A DNA stretch of 64,000 bases, from the NCBI GenBank assembly GCA_023269825.1, contig JAGDWI010000001.1:430492-494491 (forward strand), read 5' to 3'. The stretch is from Desulfurococcaceae archaeon (GTDB lineage Archaea > Thermoproteota > Thermoprotei_A > Sulfolobales > Desulfurococcaceae). Shown piece after piece: positions 14,528 to 25,116 of this stretch. Made by a program: the position numbers and the translations under genes. Under the pieces are notes generated by a model. That model saw only the letters and a list, made by a program, of their open reading frames with translations. It ran no database searches and was not told the DNA's origin. The number at the start of each line of letters is the position of its first letter. The stretch's first letter is position 1.

Positions 14528-15619
14528 CTATATGGTCCTTATTACTTTACTTATATGTCTTGGATAATCTGGGTTAAATCCAAGTATTAGCGCTCTATAT
14601 ATTGAGAAATAGTAGAATGGTAGAATGAAAGCTGAGCTTAGTATATGAGTCTTCTTCTTTAAGTCTAACTTGTAATCAGCATTATCAATACTTGAGAAAT
14701 GTAGTACATTGAATCCTTGATCACTTAGTTCGTTGACCAACTTGGTAACATATGGGAATGAAGCGTCATTCGGAGATGAGAGCACTATTACTTGTACTCT
14801 ATCCCTTTTTTCGAGGAGCGCGATGGGGCCATGCCTAAACTCCAGTGCATGCATCGCGTAGGAGTAAGTGTAAGATATCTCTGTGAACTTTAACGCAGCC
14901 TCGAGTGCAATGGGGTATAAATCACGCGGAGCGAGTATAACGAATAGTTCTCTGTTGATCGTTGATTCAGCTAGTGAACGGATTTTATCCTTATTTCTAA
15001 CTACGCTCTCAGTAGCTGCAACTAGTTCCCTCAGCTCCTCTTTAATATTAGTGCCTCTATATACACCGATCCTGTCCAGTATTACCAATGAACTTATGAT
15101 ACCCATTAGAGTTAACGCTATAAAAGACTTAGTCATATAAGTGCTTTTCTCGTAGCAATCCCTAAACACTACTGCGTAATCAACGTTCTTCTCGAGAAAA
15201 CTCCCCTCACTACAAGTAAACCCCATTGTTTTGAGATGCAGTTTCCTAGCTTTTTCAACGATTGACACGATTTCCCCGGTTTCACCAGACCTTGAGAATA
15301 ATACAATTAACCCTTTTCGCCTGGAACTCTGCTTAAATCCCCCATTTTCCATTAAGAACAATGCCTCCGATCCAGGCAAAGCCAATGCTTTAATAGTACT
15401 CAACTCTGTTAGAAACGGGTAAACGCTCTTAAGGGCCGCATAGTAGCTACTCCCACAGCCGACATACAGTATGCTATCAGGCATGTTCTCTGATAACGCG
15501 TTCTCAGCGACTTTCTCGATTTCATCGTATTTGTGAATTAATGATGTAATGATTCTCGGTATTTCTTCGACTTCTCTCATTTGAGTTGAGTTGGAATATT
15601 CAATGATACTGTTATCCAT
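14528..15619 (-). CDS. Double SIS-domain sugar isomerase/deaminase (AgaS/GlmS-isomerase-like)
   Basis: Two SIS domains are visible in 363 residues. The N-terminal one has YVGCGSSYYAA and FSRSGETGEI, which bind the phosphosugar. The C-terminal one has FTEISYTY and HALEFRHGPIALL, the ExxHGP segment typical of GlmS isomerase and AgaS. The QMREVEEIP start also matches that group. No glutaminase domain is present, so it is not a complete GlmS. The predicted role is deamination/isomerisation of GlcN-6-P or GalN-6-P to a ketose-6-phosphate. It lies 19 bp downstream of the EIIA-like gene. Assignment to one aminosugar is not possible here. Confidence 0.82.
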   Translation of the reverse strand: MDNSIIEYSNSTQMREVEEIPRIITSLIHKYDEIEKVAENALSENMPDSILYVGCGSSYYAALKSVYPFLTELSTIKALALPGSEALFLMENGGFKQSSRRKGLIVLFSRSGETGEIVSIVEKARKLHLKTMGFTCSEGSFLEKNVDYAVVFRDCYEKSTYMTKSFIALTLMGIISSLVILDRIGVYRGTNIKEELRELVAATESVVRNKDKIRSLAESTINRELFVILAPRDLYPIALEAALKFTEISYTYSYAMHALEFRHGPIALLEKRDRVQVIVLSSPNDASFPYVTKLVNELSDQGFNVLHFSSIDNADYKLDLKKKTHILSSAFILPFYYFSIYRALILGFNPDYPRHISKVIRTI

Positions 15620-15638
15620 TATATCACGCTCTTAACCC

Positions 15639-16124
15639 TTACTCTGTAATGTTTCTTTTTACTCCATTAAAGTATTTTCTTATGATCTCTTTTATTTCAA
15701 ACGAGTACCTAACACTTGTTAATTCTTCTATGAAGCTCGGTATACTTAGTAAGCTTGCTAATTCTTTTAACATCTTTAAATGACTTGGTTTATCTACAGC
15801 TGCAAACCCTATTACAACGTTAACCAGGTCATTCGGTGAACCAAAATTCACTTCTTTCTTTATTACTAGAGTACTGAGACCTACACTGTGTGCACTATCC
15901 TCAGGTCTAGCATGGGGCATTGCAATTCTAGGAGCTATTACGGCGTAAGGATCCAATTCACGTGTCACGTTAACCATGGCTTCGATATATTTATCTTCAA
16001 CTACACGATCTATCGCAAGTAAACCACCAGCTAATCTAATGGCTTCAATCCAATCCTTCACAGACCCTGTCACGAGAGTCCTATTGTCCAGTGCTTCGAG
16101 TAAATTCAGTTCCTCGTTTTCCAT
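15639..16124 (-). CDS. PTS EIIA-like protein (fructose/mannitol/ascorbate type 2 fold)
   Basis: This 161-residue protein matches the PTS EIIA type-2 domain (FruA/UlaC-like). The phospho-acceptor histidine motif is APRIAMPHAR, with H71. The following segments ending LGLSTL-type and VVIGFAAVDKPSHLKML...LASLL are canonical. EIIA normally receives phosphate from HPr and passes it to EIIB. No EI, HPr, EIIB or EIIC gene appears in the window, and the neighbouring importer is an ABC type. It sits inside an operon of two SIS proteins and NagA. It may be a regulator, or a phosphoryl carrier whose partners lie elsewhere. Confidence 0.82.
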   Translation of the reverse strand: MENEELNLLEALDNRTLVTGSVKDWIEAIRLAGGLLAIDRVVEDKYIEAMVNVTRELDPYAVIAPRIAMPHARPEDSAHSVGLSTLVIKKEVNFGSPNDLVNVVIGFAAVDKPSHLKMLKELASLLSIPSFIEELTSVRYSFEIKEIIRKYFNGVKRNITE

Positions 16125-16156
16125 GTACTTTACCTTTTCTTTATTTTAACTGTACA

Positions 16157-16900
16157 TTATAGAGGCTTAATTATATCAATGTATTTCCTAACGTATTCTT
16201 GGTTTTTCTCTATCCCGCCGGGGATGTTAGCGCTGATCCATATTTCGGGTTTTAATCCTTTCTCAAGTAATTTCTCAACTGTTCTAATATTGAGAAGCTG
16301 CAGTATAAAGGAATTAATGATCGTTGATACTGGAGCTATCTTTATTCCAAGGGATCTCAACTCGTATATGGCATCTCCTTCCGGAACCTTGTTATCGATC
16401 AATACATCAACGACCTCGTAGAGTTTTTTACCCATAGGATTCTCTGGTGGCACTTTTTTCGAGAACTCGAGTGATGTTAACCCTATAACGCTTAATCCAA
16501 TTTTTCTCGCAGTTATAGCCATCTCCACAGGAACAGCGTTCTTTCCCGAATTAGATACTATTATTATGGTGGAACCTTGTTTAGGTTGCAGAGACTTAAG
16601 CAAGGCGTCAGCATAACCAGACACGCGTTCAAGCATTGTACTTTTCAGAGCCCCGTTAAAACCTGAAATAGACAAGTCTAATATAGGGTAGACGCGGACA
16701 AGTCCTCCTGCTCTATAAAACATTTCAAGAGCCATCATCATCGAATGCCCTGTTCCGAAAACATATATGAAGCAATCATTTTCAATTGTTTTAGCCATGA
16801 GATCGGATGCTTTCTCAATATTATCGCGTTCTTCATTAACCACTCTATTTAATATATTTAGAACGTTGCTAGTGAAGTATTCATATGCTTTTGAATTCAT
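16157..16900 (-). CDS. Single SIS-domain protein (UPF0309-like phosphosugar binding)
   Basis: A 247-residue protein with one SIS domain flanked by helices: [22 protein letters not shown] (about 40-60) and [17 protein letters not shown] (about 118-133). This pattern fits the UPF0309/MurQ-related SIS family, whose members bind or isomerise sugar phosphates. The catalytic role is not established. It is 32 bp upstream of the EIIA-like gene and 123 bp downstream of nagA, so it belongs to the same hexosamine unit. It could be an epimerase, a lyase or an allosteric sensor. Confidence 0.75.
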
Positions 16901-17023
16901 GAACCCACCAATTTAACAGTTATGAACCGAAAAAATTAAAAACTTTGCAGATCAATCATTCTTACTCAGTAGCATATAAATCCTTCAAGAACCATGCAGA
17001 AGAAATGTTCTCTATATGGCATC

Positions 17024-18184
17024 TTACTTTTCGAATACTATATCACCATTTATCATCGTTTTTACAACAGTCATATCGTCGTCAACTAAAACAAAGTCAG
17101 CTTGATACCCAACTCTAATATCTCCAAGGTTATATAGCCTTATGCTTTCAGCGGGTGCTTTAGAAGCCATCAATACTATGTCTTTGAATTCGTAACCAAG
17201 TCTACTTATGTTTTTAACGGCTTTATCCATGGTTAAAGTACTGCCCGCTAATCCACCAGTGTCCGCGAGTCTGCAGATACCTTGCTTAACAATGACTTTT
17301 AATCCACCTAATTCATATTCACCATCCGGCATATCTGTTGCTGCTATTGAATCCGTTATCAATACTACTCTTCTCGGTGAAGCATAGTCAATAACCATTT
17401 TCACAACCGCTGGGTGAAGGTGAACGAAGTCCACTATAATCTCCAAGTAAACACTAGGTGATTGTAACAGAGCCAGTACTATGCCTGGTTCTCTGTGCTG
17501 AAATCTCGTCATACCATTAAACAAGTGAGTAGCCTTAGATACACCTATTTCAATGCTTCTTAAACCTTCTTCATATGAGGCATGTGTATGCCCAGCACTA
17601 ACAACTATACCCATGCTTCTAGCGAAAGTGATAAATTCACCTGCACCTTCCAATTCGGGAGCAATAGTCACTTGTTTAATGGTGTTACCTGAAGCTTCCA
17701 CTAGTTTTTTAAACTCCTCTATGTTCGGAGGATGAATGTAAGCCTTATTTTGAGCTCCAGCTGCTTCAGGATTCAGGTAGGGGCCTTCGAGGTGTATTCC
17801 TAGTATTCTCGCACCATTATCGCTCCTCCATTCACTCATAGCTTCTCTAACGGCTCCACATGCTTCAGCTAGCTCTTCAAATGGAGCAGTAACCGTGGTA
17901 GGTAAAAACCCTGTGACCCCGTGCCGGGAGTAATGTTTCGCCATTTCAAGGATTTTACCGGGTTCTCTATTAACAGTTGCATCTAAGCCTTTGATACCAT
18001 GTGTATGTGTATCTATGAAACCAGGCATAACTATGAGGCCCTCAGCGTTTATCACCGTGCTTGAGAGCCCCGTGAAAGGTTCTCTGTCAACTTCTACTAT
18101 TACGCCGTTCTCAATTAGAATGTAAGCGTCCTCAATAACTCTGGTTGAGGAAACGACTCTACCATGTCTTATAACTAAGCTCAT
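17024..18184 (-). CDS. nagA: N-acetylglucosamine-6-phosphate deacetylase
   Basis: This is an amidohydrolase-superfamily enzyme of NagA type, 386 residues. Metal and catalytic landmarks are present: DTHTHGIKG, HLEGPYLNPEAAGA (the NagA glutamate), SAGHTHASYEEG, THLFNGMTRFQHREPG and LITDSIAATDMPDG (catalytic Asp). The enzyme removes acetate from GlcNAc-6-P or GalNAc-6-P. I chose ATG 18184 over an in-frame codon at 18202 because GGAGGAGAC lies immediately upstream at 18197-18189. It heads the minus-strand operon, and the kinase at 8263 would supply its substrate. Confidence 0.9.
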   Translation of the reverse strand: MSLVIRHGRVVSSTRVIEDAYILIENGVIVEVDREPFTGLSSTVINAEGLIVMPGFIDTHTHGIKGLDATVNREPGKILEMAKHYSRHGVTGFLPTTVTAPFEELAEACGAVREAMSEWRSDNGARILGIHLEGPYLNPEAAGAQNKAYIHPPNIEEFKKLVEASGNTIKQVTIAPELEGAGEFITFARSMGIVVSAGHTHASYEEGLRSIEIGVSKATHLFNGMTRFQHREPGIVLALLQSPSVYLEIIVDFVHLHPAVVKMVIDYASPRRVVLITDSIAATDMPDGEYELGGLKVIVKQGICRLADTGGLAGSTLTMDKAVKNISRLGYEFKDIVLMASKAPAESIRLYNLGDIRVGYQADFVLVDDDMTVVKTMINGDIVFEK

Positions 18185-18351
18185 TAAAGTCTCCTCCAGC
18201 ACTTAATATGTCCCATGGGTGAAATATTAATGTTTTCAATTAATAATGCACTGTAGCTTTTCGCTAAGCATTTACAACGGGTGAGGTCTTTGATAGATTA
18301 TTGAATACTTGAACTAAGAGATGCTCTTACCGTGTACTACGATCTACATAA

Positions 18352-18857: not shown

Positions 18858-19205
18858 TTACTCTACTCTATCTTTAACATCGAACTTTATTCTACCATAC
18901 TCCTTAGTGACCCCCGTTATGAGTAGCTTATGTTCGCCTTGATCTAGTCTTTTCCCATCAATTCTCACTGTTACCGTGGTGTTCAGTGAGAACTCCACAG
19001 GGTTCGACTCAGAGACATCTTTATTTGAAATAGTTTTAGAATCAGTGATCAAAACTACTTTATCTACTGGTATAGGGTTATCGTCAACACTTATCTCCAA
19101 TGGTTTAACGATTGTTGCATCTGCGAGAATGTTCTTCAACGCGAATTCGAAGCCGTTATCAGTGTTCTTCAAGCTTTTCTTAACATATAGTCTCCTTAGA
19201 ATCAT
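18858..19205 (-). CDS. Conserved hypothetical protein, about 115 aa
   Basis: The protein starts MILRRLYVKKSLKNTDNGFEF and is almost entirely beta-strand in pattern, with NILADATIVKPLEISVD and TVTVRIDGKRLDQGEHKL. It looks like a small soluble beta-barrel or sandwich. I do not recognise a named family. ATG 19205 is preferred over a TTG at 19220, which starts with a low-quality SVPP segment. A TATATATTAA element at about 19250-19262 could be its TATA box. It diverges from the RuBisCO-like gene. Confidence 0.5.
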   Translation of the reverse strand: MILRRLYVKKSLKNTDNGFEFALKNILADATIVKPLEISVDDNPIPVDKVVLITDSKTISNKDVSESNPVEFSLNTTVTVRIDGKRLDQGEHKLLITGVTKEYGRIKFDVKDRVE

Positions 19206-19319
19206 GGGTGGTACGGACAATTTTATACACCACTTATTTCTTATTCAAGCAATTAATATATAGATTTAACATTACAAATTTTTATTAAATCTCCTGATTA
19301 AATAATTCTCGGTGGTAAC

Positions 19320-20642
19320 TTGAAGCCTCCTAGAATAGATTATGAAGACCTCCTAGACGTCCTCTATGAGACAATAGATGTTGACAAGTACCTTATAGCA
19401 CACTACATTGTTGAAGTACCCGCTGGGTTCCCACCGGACATGGTTGCAAGAGCCTTCGCCGCCGAGCAAACCACGGGTACATGGATTAGGACACCCGCTG
19501 AGACAACTGAGATGAGGAAAAAGCTTGGAGGAAAAGTCCTTGGTTTATATGAGATGCCGGATTATGAGACTGAAACACCTAAAGAGGGTTTTAGAAGATT
19601 CTTCATATCTATAGGTTTCCCATGGGTTAACTTCGAGAATGATTTATCCACAATGTTCTCAGCTATTACAGGCAACATAATGGCTTTTGGGAGAATAAAA
19701 CTCGTAGATATATGGATGCCTCCCAGTTTCCTCAAGATGTTTAAGGGTCCAAAATTCGGAGTAGACGGGTTGAGGAGTTTAATGAGTATCCCTGATAGAC
19801 CACTAATTGTTGCAATGATTAAACCATGTATATACTACCCAGCTGATACGGGAGCTAAGTTAGCTTACGAAGCCTGGGTTGGAGGCGTAGACGTGATTAA
19901 AGACGATGAGTTACTGGCAAATCAAAGCTTCAACAGTGTTGAGGAGAGAGTTGTTAAATTCATGGAAATGCTTGATAAAGCCGCACAGGAAACCGGTGAG
20001 AGGAAACTATACACTGTTAACATAACTAGTGATCCCCCGAAATTGTTTGAACTAGCTGAGAGAGTTAAACAACTCGGAGGAAACGCTTTAATGGTCAACG
20101 CTTACTCAGTTGGTTTAGGGGCATTTAAACAACTAGCAGAAGACCCGAGCATAAATCTACCCATATTAGCTCACACACCGGACTACGTAGCCATGTCATA
20201 TGTATCACCTATCTCAGGTATTTCATCAATCCTAGTCTGCGGTAAACTCGTTAGATTAGCTGGAGCAGACATGGTCATATATCCTGGACCCTATGGGAAA
20301 GTCCCAACATTCACTAAGGAGAAGTATATTAGGGTTGCAAAGTACTTGAGGGCCCCTATGAGCGGGTTGAAGCAGACTCTTCCATGCCCATCAGGTGGTA
20401 ACACTGTGCTCGAGGTACCAAAGCTCATAAGTGATTTAGGAGTAGACATAGGAATAGCTGCTGGTGGAGCAGTACACGCGCATCCATTGGGAAGTAGAGC
20501 TGGAGCTAAAGCATTGAGACAAGCAATAGAAGCGGCATTGAAGAATATTCCCATCGAAGAGTACGCTAAGGAAGCAGCTGAGCTAAGAGCTGCTTTAGAA
20601 GCATATAAGAAAGGTGCTCTCGCAGTAATGCTTGGATTATAG
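19320..20642 (+). CDS. RuBisCO-like protein (probably form IV)
   Basis: This 440-residue protein has the RuBisCO large-subunit architecture: the N-terminal EQTTGTW and TGNIMAF segments, then a TIM barrel. Numbered here (spinach in brackets), K168 (K175) is conserved, but C170 replaces K177. K194, D196 and E197 (K201, D203, E204), the carbamate/Mg site, are intact. H285 (H294) is present but T286 replaces R295. No histidine appears where H327 is expected. K327 (K334), S358 (S379) and G382/G383 (G403/G404) are kept. This mix argues for an enolase, isomerase or decarboxylase-like reaction on a sugar phosphate rather than CO2 fixation. The TTG start follows GGTGGT. An FGGY kinase follows directly and a class II aldolase converges. 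Confidence 0.85.
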   Translation: MKPPRIDYEDLLDVLYETIDVDKYLIAHYIVEVPAGFPPDMVARAFAAEQTTGTWIRTPAETTEMRKKLGGKVLGLYEMPDYETETPKEGFRRFFISIGFPWVNFENDLSTMFSAITGNIMAFGRIKLVDIWMPPSFLKMFKGPKFGVDGLRSLMSIPDRPLIVAMIKPCIYYPADTGAKLAYEAWVGGVDVIKDDELLANQSFNSVEERVVKFMEMLDKAAQETGERKLYTVNITSDPPKLFELAERVKQLGGNALMVNAYSVGLGAFKQLAEDPSINLPILAHTPDYVAMSYVSPISGISSILVCGKLVRLAGADMVIYPGPYGKVPTFTKEKYIRVAKYLRAPMSGLKQTLPCPSGGNTVLEVPKLISDLGVDIGIAAGGAVHAHPLGSRAGAKALRQAIEAALKNIPIEEYAKEAAELRAALEAYKKGALAVMLGL

Positions 20643-20685
20643 TGTTTTTTATTTACTCGTTGCGAGACCCCCATGGTGTCTTCAA

Positions 20686-22242
20686 TTGACTTTTCTAATA
20701 GCTTTAGATATTGGAACAAGCTCGGTTAAAAGCATTCTACTAAGAGTCGAGAATGCTGAGATAGTGGGTAAATTCATTCAGCCTCTGAGAGTAATTTACC
20801 CTAAGACGGGTTGGGCTGAACAAGACCCGTATGAGCTCTTCGAGAGAATCACAGTCACCATAAATAACCTACTTAATTCAACGAGAGTTAACCCGAGCGA
20901 GGTTATTGGTGTCTCAATGGATGCCCAAATGCTAGGAGTAGTTCCAGTTAGCAGAGATGGAGAAGCACTATATAATATATTGACATGGCTCGATGTTAGA
21001 TCAGCTGGTGAACCACGCGAACTATTCACAGGTTTCCCGAAGGTCAGCGGGTATAATTTACTCAAGCTCATTAAATTCCTGAGAATCACTGGTGGAGCAC
21101 CGAGTAGGACGGGGAAAGATCCTTTATCTAAAATCATCTGGTTAAAGAAGAATATGCCGGAAATTTATGAGAAAACCTGGAAATTCCTGAACGTTAATGG
21201 CTTCATCGCCTACAAGTTAACTGGTAACCCCGTTATAAACGCTGATGAGGCTCATTTAACGTGGCTAGCTGATATCAGGAGAGGTAAACTAGAGTGGAGT
21301 AACCCCATACTAAAGGACTTAGGGTTAAATATTGAGAAACTACCAGTTATTAAAGCACCAGCTGAGGTAGCTGGGAACATTAGAGGAGATATAGCAAAAG
21401 AGCTAGGGTTAAGTGAAAACGTTAAAGTAGTGGTTGGATCCGGTGATGTAGCTGCTACAGCCATTGGATCAGGTGCAGTTGAGGACTATGAGACACACTT
21501 GTACCTGGGTACTAGTGACTGGTTAGCGTCACATCTACCATTCAGAAAACTAGATATATTTCACGCTATTGGAACAATTGTTAGCGCTATACCGGGCAAA
21601 TACCTTTTGATCGCTGAACAAGAGTGCGGTTGCGTAGCATTAGATTACATCATAAACTTACTCTACGGTGAGAGGGATAAGAAAATCTACGATGAAGTAG
21701 ACAGAAACATAGGGGGCGTTGACCCTGCCTCCAATAAGGTTTTCTTCCTCCCATGGATGTTCGGGGAGAGAGTACCTATAGATGACCCCTACGTGAGGGG
21801 TGTTCTATACAATGTAAGCTTAAGTGACACAAGGTACCAGATACTTGAAGCCATAATGGAGGGGATAGCTTTAAACATTAAGTGGGCTCAAGTATTCTTC
21901 GAGAAACTACTGGGGAGAAGTATTCAGAGAATAAACATCGTTGGTGGAGGAGCACTGTGGAACTCTCTATGCCAAATCATAGCTGATGCAACAGGAGCAG
22001 AGGTCTGGAGAATGAATACTCTGCAGGAGGCATCAGCAGTGGGAGCGGCTGTAATTGGCGTTAAAGCATTGAATCTAGGGGGATTCGAGTACGTGAAGAG
22101 AATAGCTAAACCATTGACAGTGTTTAAACCAAGAGAGAACCTAATAGGAGTTTTCGACAAGAAACTTAAGTTAATCATAGAGCTATATAAAGCCAACAAA
22201 AAACACTTTAGAAAATTAAATAAGCCGAGTGAAGAACACTAA
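20686..22242 (+). CDS. FGGY-family carbohydrate kinase
   Basis: The protein opens LTFLIALDIGTSSVKS (phosphate-1 loop) and continues with GWAEQDP, GVSMDAQM, VVVGSGDVAATAIGSGA and INIVGGGALWNSLCQIIADATGAEV, the adenosine motif. All belong to the FGGY kinases (xylulokinase/ribulokinase/erythritol kinase group). Length about 518. The start is TTG 20686, preceded by GGTG at 20676-20679. The more obvious ATG at 20673 is out of frame. The gene lies 43 bp after the RuBisCO-like gene and overlaps the class II aldolase gene tail-to-tail by 4 bp. It should phosphorylate a ketose, polyol or sugar acid feeding the RuBisCO-like enzyme; the exact sugar is unknown. Confidence 0.88.
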   Translation: MTFLIALDIGTSSVKSILLRVENAEIVGKFIQPLRVIYPKTGWAEQDPYELFERITVTINNLLNSTRVNPSEVIGVSMDAQMLGVVPVSRDGEALYNILTWLDVRSAGEPRELFTGFPKVSGYNLLKLIKFLRITGGAPSRTGKDPLSKIIWLKKNMPEIYEKTWKFLNVNGFIAYKLTGNPVINADEAHLTWLADIRRGKLEWSNPILKDLGLNIEKLPVIKAPAEVAGNIRGDIAKELGLSENVKVVVGSGDVAATAIGSGAVEDYETHLYLGTSDWLASHLPFRKLDIFHAIGTIVSAIPGKYLLIAEQECGCVALDYIINLLYGERDKKIYDEVDRNIGGVDPASNKVFFLPWMFGERVPIDDPYVRGVLYNVSLSDTRYQILEAIMEGIALNIKWAQVFFEKLLGRSIQRINIVGGGALWNSLCQIIADATGAEVWRMNTLQEASAVGAAVIGVKALNLGGFEYVKRIAKPLTVFKPRENLIGVFDKKLKLIIELYKANKKHFRKLNKPSEEH

Positions 22243-22883
22243 CTGGGCTTAGAGAACCTCTTGAGGAAAAGCTTTTTCTGAAACTCAACTACTTCCTCTG
22301 GGAGACTGTGAACTCTACCCATTAATTTAGCGAGAACATATATCTGTGCAGATCGCTCGACTACCGTTAAGACTTCTAAAGCTTCATCGATGCTTCTCCC
22401 ACACGCTACAACTCCGTGGTTAGCGAGTATAACAGCTGCTCTATTCTCTAATGCTTTAACAGCGTTCTCAGCTAACTCCTCGCTTCCGAATGGAGCGTAA
22501 TCAGCCACTCTTACTTCGCCCCCAGTGTACATTATCATTTCCTCTGTGACAGGAGGTAACGGCTCTCTCGTCACGGCTAGAACACTAGTGTATAAAGCGT
22601 GTGCGTGAATAACGGCTCCAATGTGTCTATAACTCCTATATATAGCTAAGTGTAAAGGCATCTCAACCGTGGGGTTACGTTCACCCTCAATAATATCTCC
22701 ATCAATGGAGACAACGAGGATGTCATCTGGGCTCATCTCGGATTTAACTACTCCGCTTGGAGTAATTAGAACATGGTTCTCCTCGACTCTTATGCTGGCA
22801 TTACCCGATCTACCGTAATTAAGGCCTCTTTCCTCCATGTACTTCATTACTTCAACTATTTTCTTCTTTAAATCCTCATACAA
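22239..22883 (-). CDS. Class II aldolase/adducin family protein (fuculose-phosphate-aldolase-like)
   Basis: A 214-residue zinc aldolase. E74 corresponds to the catalytic glutamate of FucA, and the zinc histidines are H93 and H95 (IHAHAL) and H156 (ANHGV). The NYGRSGNASIR and TPSGV phosphate-binding segments are intact. Members cleave fuculose-1-P, ribulose/xylulose-phosphate or methylthioribulose-type substrates to dihydroxyacetone phosphate and an aldehyde, epimerise (AraD), or dehydrate (MtnB). Its placement against the FGGY kinase and the RuBisCO-like gene suggests it shares their sugar phosphate. The specificity cannot be read from sequence. Confidence 0.88.
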   Translation of the reverse strand: MYEDLKKKIVEVMKYMEERGLNYGRSGNASIRVEENHVLITPSGVVKSEMSPDDILVVSIDGDIIEGERNPTVEMPLHLAIYRSYRHIGAVIHAHALYTSVLAVTREPLPPVTEEMIMYTGGEVRVADYAPFGSEELAENAVKALENRAAVILANHGVVACGRSIDEALEVLTVVERSAQIYVLAKLMGRVHSLPEEVVEFQKKLFLKRFSKPS

Positions 22884-22915
22884 ATAGACAACCCTTAATA
22901 ATTTAATGCGGTAAT

Positions 22916-22925
22916 AATATTTAAA
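22916..22925 (+). promoter_or_regulatory. TATA box for leaderless wHTH regulator gene
   Basis: AATATTTAAA is centred about 26 nt upstream of ATG 22947, which would make the transcript start at the initiation codon. This leaderless geometry decides the start of the regulator gene and excludes the TTG at 22926. Confidence 0.55.
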
Positions 22926-22946
22926 TTGATATGTACGTGGTCCCCT

Positions 22947-23678
22947 ATGGGTTACTTATCTAGTTTCCAACAGAGAATACTTGAATGCATCATCTCCTTG
23001 AGTAAAGAGTGCGAGAGACCCGTTAAAAGCAATGAGGTTGCATCCTTGCTTAAAGTTCATCCCGGGAGCGTGAGGAACGCTGTGTCAACTCTGAGAATAC
23101 TTGGTTTAGTTGAATCAAAGAAGGGTCCTTTTGGTGGCTATGTGCCAACTGGGAAAGCTTTGAGAGTTTACAGTGCGAGAGATGCTCTTAGTACCGCACT
23201 TGTAACTAGTGATGGGAGCCCTTCTAGGATTTCGTCCACGATCACCGTTTGTTTAACCGATAGGAGCATTACTCTCGAGATAAGAGACTTCAGGAATAAA
23301 CTCTTCTTGAAGAAAGGTAGGAAAGTAGTAGTTCAACTAGGTAAGTACATTGTGGAAGGCGTTATCACGGATTCCGATAGAGTTGGAAGAAGAGTTGTGG
23401 TTTTAGTGAAGAGAATTGTGAGAGCTAGACCCCCAATCAGGGCCTCATCTAAAACGAAGATAAGTGATTTACTGTCATTAATGCTCGAGAAGAAAGCTGA
23501 GTGCGCTCTTGTACTGGAAAATAAGAGAGCAGTAGGGTATGTGAATATGCGTCGTTTATTGAGAGCGATAATGGAAACATGGAATCCCGATCTACCAGTA
23601 AAATCCATTGCGAGTAAACTGCCTTCATCGATGAAAGCGTTGAGGTTCCTGAGAATGGGGTATTGTCATTTCAAATAA
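22947..23678 (+). CDS. Winged-helix transcriptional regulator with CBS-like C-terminus
   Basis: Residues about 3-70 form a winged helix-turn-helix (FQQRILECII...VKSNEVASLLKVHPGSVRNAVSTLRILGLVESKKG). A central beta-rich region follows with two strand-rich repeats. The C-terminus holds one CBS-like motif (KISDLLSLMLEKKAECALVLENKRAVGYVNMRRLLRAI). CBS motifs bind adenosyl nucleotides, so a ligand-responsive repressor is plausible. The gene diverges from the aldolase gene across 63 bp and precedes the aminotransferase by 40 bp, so it is the best local candidate to control this cluster. Only one CBS motif is visible, so a dimer would be needed for a full pair. Confidence 0.75.
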   Translation: MGYLSSFQQRILECIISLSKECERPVKSNEVASLLKVHPGSVRNAVSTLRILGLVESKKGPFGGYVPTGKALRVYSARDALSTALVTSDGSPSRISSTITVCLTDRSITLEIRDFRNKLFLKKGRKVVVQLGKYIVEGVITDSDRVGRRVVVLVKRIVRARPPIRASSKTKISDLLSLMLEKKAECALVLENKRAVGYVNMRRLLRAIMETWNPDLPVKSIASKLPSSMKALRFLRMGYCHFK

Positions 23679-23718
23679 TTATATACCTTGCAAGGTAAGC
23701 TTTATTAATGGTGGTAAA

Positions 23719-25116
23719 TTGGATTTAAAACCCTCTGTTCTAACCGAGGATGAAATCAAGAGTCTACTGACAACTATTGATGAATCCTTAATTAGAGAAG
23801 CAAAGAAGACTTGTTTAACTGGTCTCGAGGATACTGTTCTAGTTAGAGGGGAACCAGGGGGCTCAATTGTATATGATTTAAATGGACGTAGAATAATAGA
23901 TATGACTTCTCAAGCATGGACTCTAAACGTGGGGTACTCGCACCCAGACGTAGTGTACGCGGCTGCATTACAATCAAGTATGCTCAACCACGTGAGATAC
24001 GGTTTCCCAACTATACCTAGATTAAAGTTAATGCTGAAGCTAAAGGAGATCTATGGTTATGAGAGAGTTGCTTTAAACACTCAGGGAGGAGGCTGGGCTA
24101 TTGAAGTAGCTTTAAAGCTCGCGATGATCAATAAGCCAGGCGCTGATACTTTTCTCGTAGCCTGGAGGAGTTATCATGGAAACAGCTTAGCTTTAACAGC
24201 TGCATCTCACCCTCTACCAGGTTTAATAAGGTACAAAGGATTCGGCGAAGAGAGATTCATCAGGTATCCTTACCCCTACTGTTATAGATGCCCATTCAAA
24301 ATGAAGTACCCTGAGTGTAGTTTAGATCCCTGTTTAACCTTCGTTGAGAAAACAATTAAATACGCTACGAGAGGCGTCAACTCGGTTGCAGCCATCCTCA
24401 TTGAACCCATTCAAGGACCCGGAGGAGTTGTACCAGCTCCAAGAGACTACCTTAAAGAGCTAATAGAGCTCGGTGAGAAGTACAATATATTCATCGTATT
24501 CGATGAAGCTCAAACAGCTAATGGAAGAGTTGGAGCATGGAGCGTCGCTCATTTATATGGCTTGAAACCACACATGATGACTCTAACTAAGGGTTTAGGA
24601 GGAGGCTTCCCAATTGGAGCTACTCTCGCTAAAGGCGAATTCAAGGGACTAAGTTACCCTGAAGAACACACCACGTTCGGCGGGAACCCGGTACCATACG
24701 CTGCCGCTCTCATTAACCTCATTGTAATAGAGAAACTGAACCTCGTTGAGAGAGCTAGGATCATGGGAGAATACGCGTTAAAGAGATTAAATGAGATGAA
24801 GGAGAAATTCGAGATCATCGGTGACGTAAGAGGCTACGGGTTATACTTGGGCTTAGACCTAGTGAAAAACAGGGAAACCAAGGAACCAGCACTCGAAGAA
24901 GCCGAGGAAGTAGTTAAGAGAGCCCTCGACAAAGGAGCACTATATGCTTTAGACATGCCAGACATAATGGGAGAAGAAGTATCAATGAGGAACGTTATCA
25001 AGATCAGACCACCCCTAGTAATAAAGAAAGAAGAACTAGATGAAGCACTCAATATCCTGGAAGAATCACTCATGGAGATCAGTAGAGAGTACGATTACAA
25101 GTTCTCGAAAGCGTAA
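23719..25116 (+). CDS. Class III PLP-dependent aminotransferase (or racemase)
   Basis: A 465-residue fold-type I enzyme. The PLP lysine lies in TLTKGLGGGFPIGA, and the preceding Asp is in IVFDEAQTANGRVG. The N-terminal substrate site has MTSQAWTLNVGYSHP. A distinctive YPYCYRCPFKMKYPECSLDPC insert carries four cysteines and is also known in archaeal omega-aminotransferases and in related broad-specificity amino acid racemases. The TTG start follows GGTGGT. A leaderless ATG at 23708 is out of frame. The likely donors are omega-amino or branched amino acids. A racemase function cannot be excluded. It lies in line with the regulator but may have its own TATA (TTATATAC near 23679). Confidence 0.85.
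   Translation: MDLKPSVLTEDEIKSLLTTIDESLIREAKKTCLTGLEDTVLVRGEPGGSIVYDLNGRRIIDMTSQAWTLNVGYSHPDVVYAAALQSSMLNHVRYGFPTIPRLKLMLKLKEIYGYERVALNTQGGGWAIEVALKLAMINKPGADTFLVAWRSYHGNSLALTAASHPLPGLIRYKGFGEERFIRYPYPYCYRCPFKMKYPECSLDPCLTFVEKTIKYATRGVNSVAAILIEPIQGPGGVVPAPRDYLKELIELGEKYNIFIVFDEAQTANGRVGAWSVAHLYGLKPHMMTLTKGLGGGFPIGATLAKGEFKGLSYPEEHTTFGGNPVPYAAALINLIVIEKLNLVERARIMGEYALKRLNEMKEKFEIIGDVRGYGLYLGLDLVKNRETKEPALEEAEEVVKRALDKGALYALDMPDIMGEEVSMRNVIKIRPPLVIKKEELDEALNILEESLMEISREYDYKFSKA

Follow-up and report, generated by a model that had tools for sequence, protein, structure and literature searches.

Genes and features of the locus

The window analysed here is the whole stretch of 64,000 nucleotides taken from the genome of a Desulfurococcaceae archaeon (G000:C2:430492-494491, in a genome of 1.5 Mb). 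Domain matches identify five genes at positions 19320-25116, on the strands that a sequence-only reading had given them: a RuBisCO-like protein (RLP), an FGGY kinase, a class II aldolase (ALD), a wHTH/CBS regulator (REG) and a class III aminotransferase (AMT). That reading had overlooked the 120-aa neighbour gene, hyp120, which is conserved beside the RLP, as well as a complete form III RuBisCO elsewhere in the genome. The features are as follows.

18858-19220, minus strand: hyp120, 120-aa protein (PF25653) with the fold of the beta subunit of C-glycoside deglycosidase (CGD) (Pfam, AlphaFold, Foldseek, VIA)
19265-19279, plus strand: 15-bp element TTTAACATTACAAAT in the hyp120/RLP intergenic region, putative promoter or operator (core common to relatives)
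19320-20642, plus strand: form IV RLP, 440 aa (PF00016, 167 bits; PF02788)
20686-22242, plus strand: FGGY-family kinase, xylulokinase-like (PF00370/PF02782); the ORF opens at 20632
22239-22883, minus strand: class II aldolase of the fuculose-1-phosphate type, accessory (PF00596)
22926-23678, plus strand: REG, transcriptional regulator with HrcA-type wHTH and CBS domains (PF03444)
23719-25116, plus strand: class III PLP aminotransferase, AMT (PF00202, 251 bits)

The kinase and the ALD are convergent and their 3' ends share 4 bp, which confirms the tail-to-tail overlap read earlier. The kinase more likely starts at TTG 20686, in agreement with MPFLIALDVGTSS of an orthologue, and this leaves a gap of about 43 bp to the RLP stop. 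It has both FGGY_N and FGGY_C domains and belongs to the family, its nearest curated model being XylB (267 against a cut-off of 380). The best solved relative of the ALD is the fuculose phosphate aldolase 4c24, to which it aligns through the E-H-H-H catalytic/zinc positions (E, HAH, NHG); it belongs to the class II fuculose-1-phosphate type, with a score below all equivalog cut-offs.

The gene for hyp120 is divergent from that of the RLP, with 99 bp between them. The core of TTTAACATTACAAAT is identical in the hyp120/RLP intergenic regions of the window and of two relatives, G032 and G004. It occurs as a single exact copy in the genome, and since near matches elsewhere are no commoner than those to a control pattern, no regulon is shown. 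We sought an operator for REG common to both divergent promoters and found none, the element being common only among RLP promoters.

Left of the locus, at 14528-18202, lie catabolic genes of the GlcNAc type, encoding a GlmD/NagB-II-like SIS protein, another SIS protein, NagA (above its curated cut-off) and a 161-aa PTS EIIA-like protein assigned by reading only. These genes were not found beside the RLP in the relatives that we read.

Class and residues of the RuBisCO-like protein

The RLP carries RuBisCO domains, has lost residues needed for RuBP carboxylation and lies among RLPs in the tree, and thus belongs to form IV. It scores under every curated RuBisCO and RLP cut-off, and the solved structures closest to it are those of MtnW-type RLPs. 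In a tree of 54 rows it sits with MtnW and other RLPs, with the archaeal form III rows on the opposite side (100/97). Residue positions, given in spinach numbering by alignment, tell the same story: E60, T65, W66, N123, K175, K201, D203, E204, H294, K334, S379 and G381 are kept, while K177 (C or D here), R295 and H327 are replaced, and this pattern is constant over 30 rows of the clade to which the window RLP belongs. In RuBisCO, R295 and H327 are the C5 phosphate ligands, and K334, E60 and N123 are CO2-handling residues. With the P5-phosphate ligands lost, the substrate of the RLP is likely a monophosphate. The structure model of the RLP has low confidence (pLDDT 64) and was left out of all conclusions.

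That the protein could be an AMP-pathway RuBisCO of form III, or indeed any carboxylase, is barely credible and already largely refuted. It does share the fold, and is 36% identical to the form III enzyme of the same genome. However, it reaches only 277 bits against the TIGR03326 cut-off of 497, K177, R295 and H327 are lost, its place in the tree is outside form III with full support, and the genome already has a separate and complete form III RuBisCO, with all residues intact, at G000:C3. The phylogenetic check proposed with the first reading of the locus therefore sets the RLP apart from the form III carboxylases by both tree and residues.

The comparison with MtnW (YkrW), the DK-MTP-1P enolase, bears on a different alternative. 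The two proteins have the same tree branch and indels in common, and in both R295 and H327 are lost and the P1 phosphate site is kept. Identity with MtnW is rejected by the score (272 bits against a cut-off of 513.6) and by position 123, which is N in 30/30 clade rows where MtnW has its specific Lys; MtnW has also lost E60 and K334, so that the two are opposite at all three positions. In a variant methionine salvage, the kinase, an MtnB-like class II protein, an MtnW-like RLP and a final transaminase would act on methylthioribulose derivatives. Methionine salvage is a common assignment for archaeal type IV RuBisCO (PMC7495880). The gene types do parallel MtnK, MtnB, MtnW and MtnE, and an MtnX-like phosphatase adjoins the RLP in clostridial relatives. 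Yet scores lie far under the mtnW, mtnB and mtnX cut-offs, the kinase is of the FGGY family and not MtnK, and the ALD resembles fuculose-1-phosphate aldolase, its match to the dehydratase being weak; moreover, most cassettes have no class II gene. A search of 7 cassette genomes detected no acireductone dioxygenase, and this, together with the missing MtnW-specific Lys, makes methionine salvage quite unlikely.

Relatives of the locus and their putative amine/carbonyl enzymes

The grouping of genes in the window is kept beyond it. The same genes stand together in related and in distant genomes, which rules out chance association and answers the doubt, raised with the first reading, that they might not be conserved together. 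Close orthologues of the RLP occur in G032 (86% identity), G004 (84%), G179 (76%), G022 (71%), G013 (63%) and G520 (54%), and an orthologue of the FGGY kinase is present in exactly the 7 RLP genomes among 51 searched (Fisher p 9e-9, with relatedness ignored). AMT orthologues (72-83%) were found in G004, G032 and G013, and in G006, where the gene is split over two contigs; relatives at 50-61% occur in the more distant loci L127, L129 and L150. The order ALD-REG-AMT is the same in G004, G032 and G006. Two observations speak against reading these genes as a cassette. In G032 the kinase, ALD, REG and AMT are together, but a stretch of about 6 kb with unrelated genes separates the RLP from the AMT, and G006 (an assembly 76% complete) has ALD-REG-AMT without RLP or FGGY kinase.

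The ALD, which had been read as part of the set, falls outside the conserved core. Its linkage is limited to the window's genus and G032 (G000, G004, G032 and G006), apart from a linked relative at 34% identity in a single Bathyarchaeon (G520), and it is missing from the cassettes of G013, G022, G179, L127, L129 and L150. We therefore regard it as accessory. In G020, a broken RLP (the N-terminal 167 residues) lies beside a REG remnant (L037:9342-10058): the cassette is decayed in this lineage. Two matches at 50% identity, in G001 and G002, were rejected as further RLPs. The one in G002 (L039:9767-10252) is a C-terminal piece of a form III RuBisCO, internal to its contig, with a full-length form III match on another contig; the one in G001, at the end of its contig, is a short match of a similar kind.

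Scans with single proteins against genome and viral contigs gave no match, and phage records contain none; a profile scan of genome contigs did give matches. Its best 80 loci in named genomes, at 41-71% identity, come from Bathyarchaeota, Asgard archaea, Archaeoglobus, Chloroflexi, Bacillota and others. Clustering of neighbour genes among the matches listed gives the FGGY kinase as the commonest partner, and the RLP-FGGY core recurs in Desulfurococcales, Bathyarchaeota, Asgard archaea, Chloroflexi and Bacillota. Several loci are on short MAG contigs, and the counts below are of related loci, not of independent events.

The clade of the window RLP comprises 31 rows (SH-aLRT 99), to which the partner count adds its G022 and G013 members. 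Among the matches listed, 21 loci of this clade have exactly one of three enzymes: a saccharopine-dehydrogenase-like enzyme (SDH, 11 loci), the AMT (7) or a GSAM-like class III aminotransferase (GSAM, 3). None has two. Operons exemplify each type, with AMT-FGGY-RLP-hyp120-MFS in L150, where genes abut or overlap, AMT-FGGY-RLP in L127, FGGY-RLP-SDH in L151 and L157, and FGGY-RLP-GSAM in L134 and L135. The exclusion extends to whole genomes, since a genome-level search found no SDH in four AMT genomes and no AMT orthologue in three SDH genomes. In some Asgard loci, no partner gene is within reach.

On a tree of 30 labelled RLPs, which includes nine clostridial GSAM-type loci, the partner type changes at least five times, and one supported sister pair is of opposite type (L088 with SDH and L127 with AMT; 100/97). 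In the kinase tree, the partner types are mixed likewise. Given this mutual exclusion and the repeated swaps, SDH, AMT and GSAM look interchangeable, and by their families would serve an amine/carbonyl step: the best solved relative of the SDH is carboxyspermidine dehydrogenase, an amine/carbonyl enzyme, and amine/carbonyl interconversion is common to the known chemistries of class III transaminases, GSAM-like enzymes and carboxyspermidine/saccharopine dehydrogenases. The SDH might nevertheless act on something other than an amine. A linked family of MFS transporters is common to AMT-, SDH- and GSAM-type loci, which favours a single substrate class.

The same scan gave other arrangements in Bacillota. 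In gut and other Clostridia (L174, L175, L180, L181, L184, L193, L195), some culturable (e.g., Emergencia timonensis), the order is FGGY kinase, GSAM, RLP and MtnX-like phosphatase, with a TetR regulator, sometimes the shared MFS transporter, and N in place of K177. Loci of the Acetobacterium/Eubacterium type (L171, L182, L200, L201, L202, L204) have a SorC-like regulator, an FGGY kinase, a DAO oxidoreductase, a pyridine-nucleotide oxidoreductase, DUF1667 and an RLP in which S379 is G. A second association of RLPs in Clostridia is with a PEP-hydrolase-like TIM barrel (PF09370), mostly together with UPF0261 (L152, L158, L162, L163, L165, L166, L168 and L192). In two Thermoproteota, G175 and G178 (L068 and L069), an unusual RuBisCO homologue is likewise flanked by UPF0261-like genes.

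A proposed pathway and its alternatives

We regard it as an even call whether the locus represents the form taken in one lineage by a widespread, undescribed cassette of RLP, FGGY kinase and amine/carbonyl enzyme that works in the four steps proposed here. First, the PLP aminotransferase would interconvert amine and carbonyl on a polyhydroxylated compound, a task that may fall in other lineages to the NAD(P)-dependent saccharopine-dehydrogenase-like enzyme or to the GSAM-like aminotransferase. Second, the resulting keto sugar or polyol would be phosphorylated by the xylulokinase-like FGGY kinase. Third, the RLP would use a carbamylated Lys and Mg2+ to make the enediolate of the monophosphate, and would move or remove its carbonyl; the simplest such reaction would be a 1,3-keto shift, as catalysed by R. 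rubrum RLP1. Fourth, in the lineage of the window, the fuculose-1-phosphate-type aldolase may split a ketose-1-phosphate into DHAP and an aldehyde, and other lineages may use other exits, such as the MtnX-like phosphatase of Clostridia. The analysis shows which genes these are, where the RLP belongs and which residues it keeps, its link with the FGGY kinase, and the exclusion and swapping among the amine/carbonyl enzymes; we infer the order of these steps, the reaction of the RLP, the role of the ALD and the class of substrate. The pentose or deoxypentose substrate first suggested for the locus is not supported, and an amino group on the substrate or product is suggested by the amine/carbonyl enzyme that recurs in the cassettes.

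The closest precedent for both the RLP step and the aldolase cleavage is the chemistry of the DeepYkr RLPs, which carry out the 1,3-isomerisation of methylthioribulose-1-P, the same compound being split by a class II aldolase into DHAP and an aldehyde (PMC5893883). RLP1 of R. rubrum and R. palustris, a 5-methylthioribulose-1-P 1,3-isomerase of the DeepYkr clade acting in the MTA-isoprenoid shunt, is likewise a form IV RLP and works on a pentulose monophosphate; its intermediate is also handled by a class II aldolase in another shunt (PMC5893883). The partners differ, with MtnP, MtnA and a cupin for RLP1 and an FGGY kinase with an aminotransferase or SDH for the window RLP and its relatives.

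An alternative that we hold to be unlikely is that 5-deoxyribose or some related by-product is salvaged here, in which case the kinase, the RLP as isomerase and the aldolase would yield DHAP and an aldehyde, and the aminotransferase would be incidental. A known bacterial pathway for 5-deoxyribose does use a kinase, an isomerase and a class II aldolase (PMC6079011), the window kinase is xylulokinase-like, and the RLP1 reaction run in reverse on a 1-X-xylulose-5-P would yield the aldolase substrate. Against this, most cassettes have no aldolase, yet usually have the amine/carbonyl enzyme.

The retained K334, E60 and N123 would also fit decarboxylation instead of isomerisation. The RLP could then act on a phosphorylated beta-keto sugar acid, as OiaX, the 3-oxo-isoapionate-4-P decarboxylase, does in D-apiose breakdown, with an amino sugar acid converted into that keto acid by the PLP or SDH enzyme. 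The three residues are kept across the clade, unlike in MtnW, K334 is kept in OiaX too, and sugar-acid transporters are the nearest, if weak, matches of the MFS relatives. OiaX and the other DUF1537-linked RLPs of acid-sugar catabolism also lie beside a sugar kinase, as does the window RLP. However, they form a separate branch in which W66 is F and R295 is kept, and their kinase is of the DUF1537 type where the window clade pairs with FGGY kinases. Identity with OiaX itself is rejected (190.7 bits against a cut-off of 700), and we consider decarboxylation of this kind rather unlikely.

The neighbour gene hyp120 opens a further possibility. Its AlphaFold model has a pLDDT of 90.6, its 17 best Foldseek matches, all those with E <= 0.001, are CGD chains, and VIA gives a Z of 14.6 over 116 residues to 7drd_B, the best unrelated row being at 8.7. 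The fold is thus that of a CGD beta subunit, and PF19906 is borderline by sequence. As for the known beta subunits (DgpB, CarC), which share this fold at 11-18% identity, the adjacent gene encodes a metal-dependent TIM-barrel enzyme, but here that barrel is the RLP and not the usual PF01261 alpha subunit. A complete C-glycoside deglycosidase was considered and rejected, since no PF01261 alpha-subunit gene is adjacent and the genome's two PF01261 genes are elsewhere. hyp120 adjoins the RLP in five loci (the window, G032, G004, G013 and the distant operon L150); it occurs in 6/229 genomes of the class, 4 of them with the RLP alongside (Fisher p 2e-6, with relatedness ignored). In G175 it has an MFS gene and a GH1 glycosidase in its vicinity (also the case in G032) and no RLP beside it, and G176 also has it without an adjacent RLP, which weakens the pairing. 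It is conceivable, if quite doubtful, that the RLP and hyp120 form a new heteromeric enzyme, with a RuBisCO-fold catalytic subunit and a beta-sandwich partner, acting on a phosphorylated sugar derived from an amine-bearing one. Such an enzyme might decarboxylate its substrate, because the CO2-handling residues are intact.

The function of most RuBisCO-like proteins is an open question, and an actinobacterial RLP of unknown function has been noted (PMC7325909). In agreement with the first reading, the curated models and the literature searched gave no pathway described with this combination of genes, and we found no description of an RLP with an FGGY kinase and these partners in the open-access literature. 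A frequent default assignment of archaeal type IV proteins has been methionine salvage (PMC7495880), and the clade described here gives an alternative hypothesis. Its RLPs form a coherent group in Thermoproteota, Asgard archaea, Archaeoglobus, Chloroflexi and Bacillota, in which a kinase recurs as partner and the three amine/carbonyl enzymes exclude one another. The hypothesis can be assayed, as it predicts that the substrate is a polyhydroxy compound bearing an amine, that the intermediate is a monophosphate and that the catalytic centre retains the CO2-handling residues of RuBisCO, and it is testable in culturable relatives with cognate RLP-FGGY loci, such as Emergencia timonensis, Sinanaerobacter and Acetobacterium. 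Found as it is in hot-spring archaea, in Asgard archaea and in bacteria of the gut, the gene set suggests a widespread and apparently undescribed metabolic pathway.
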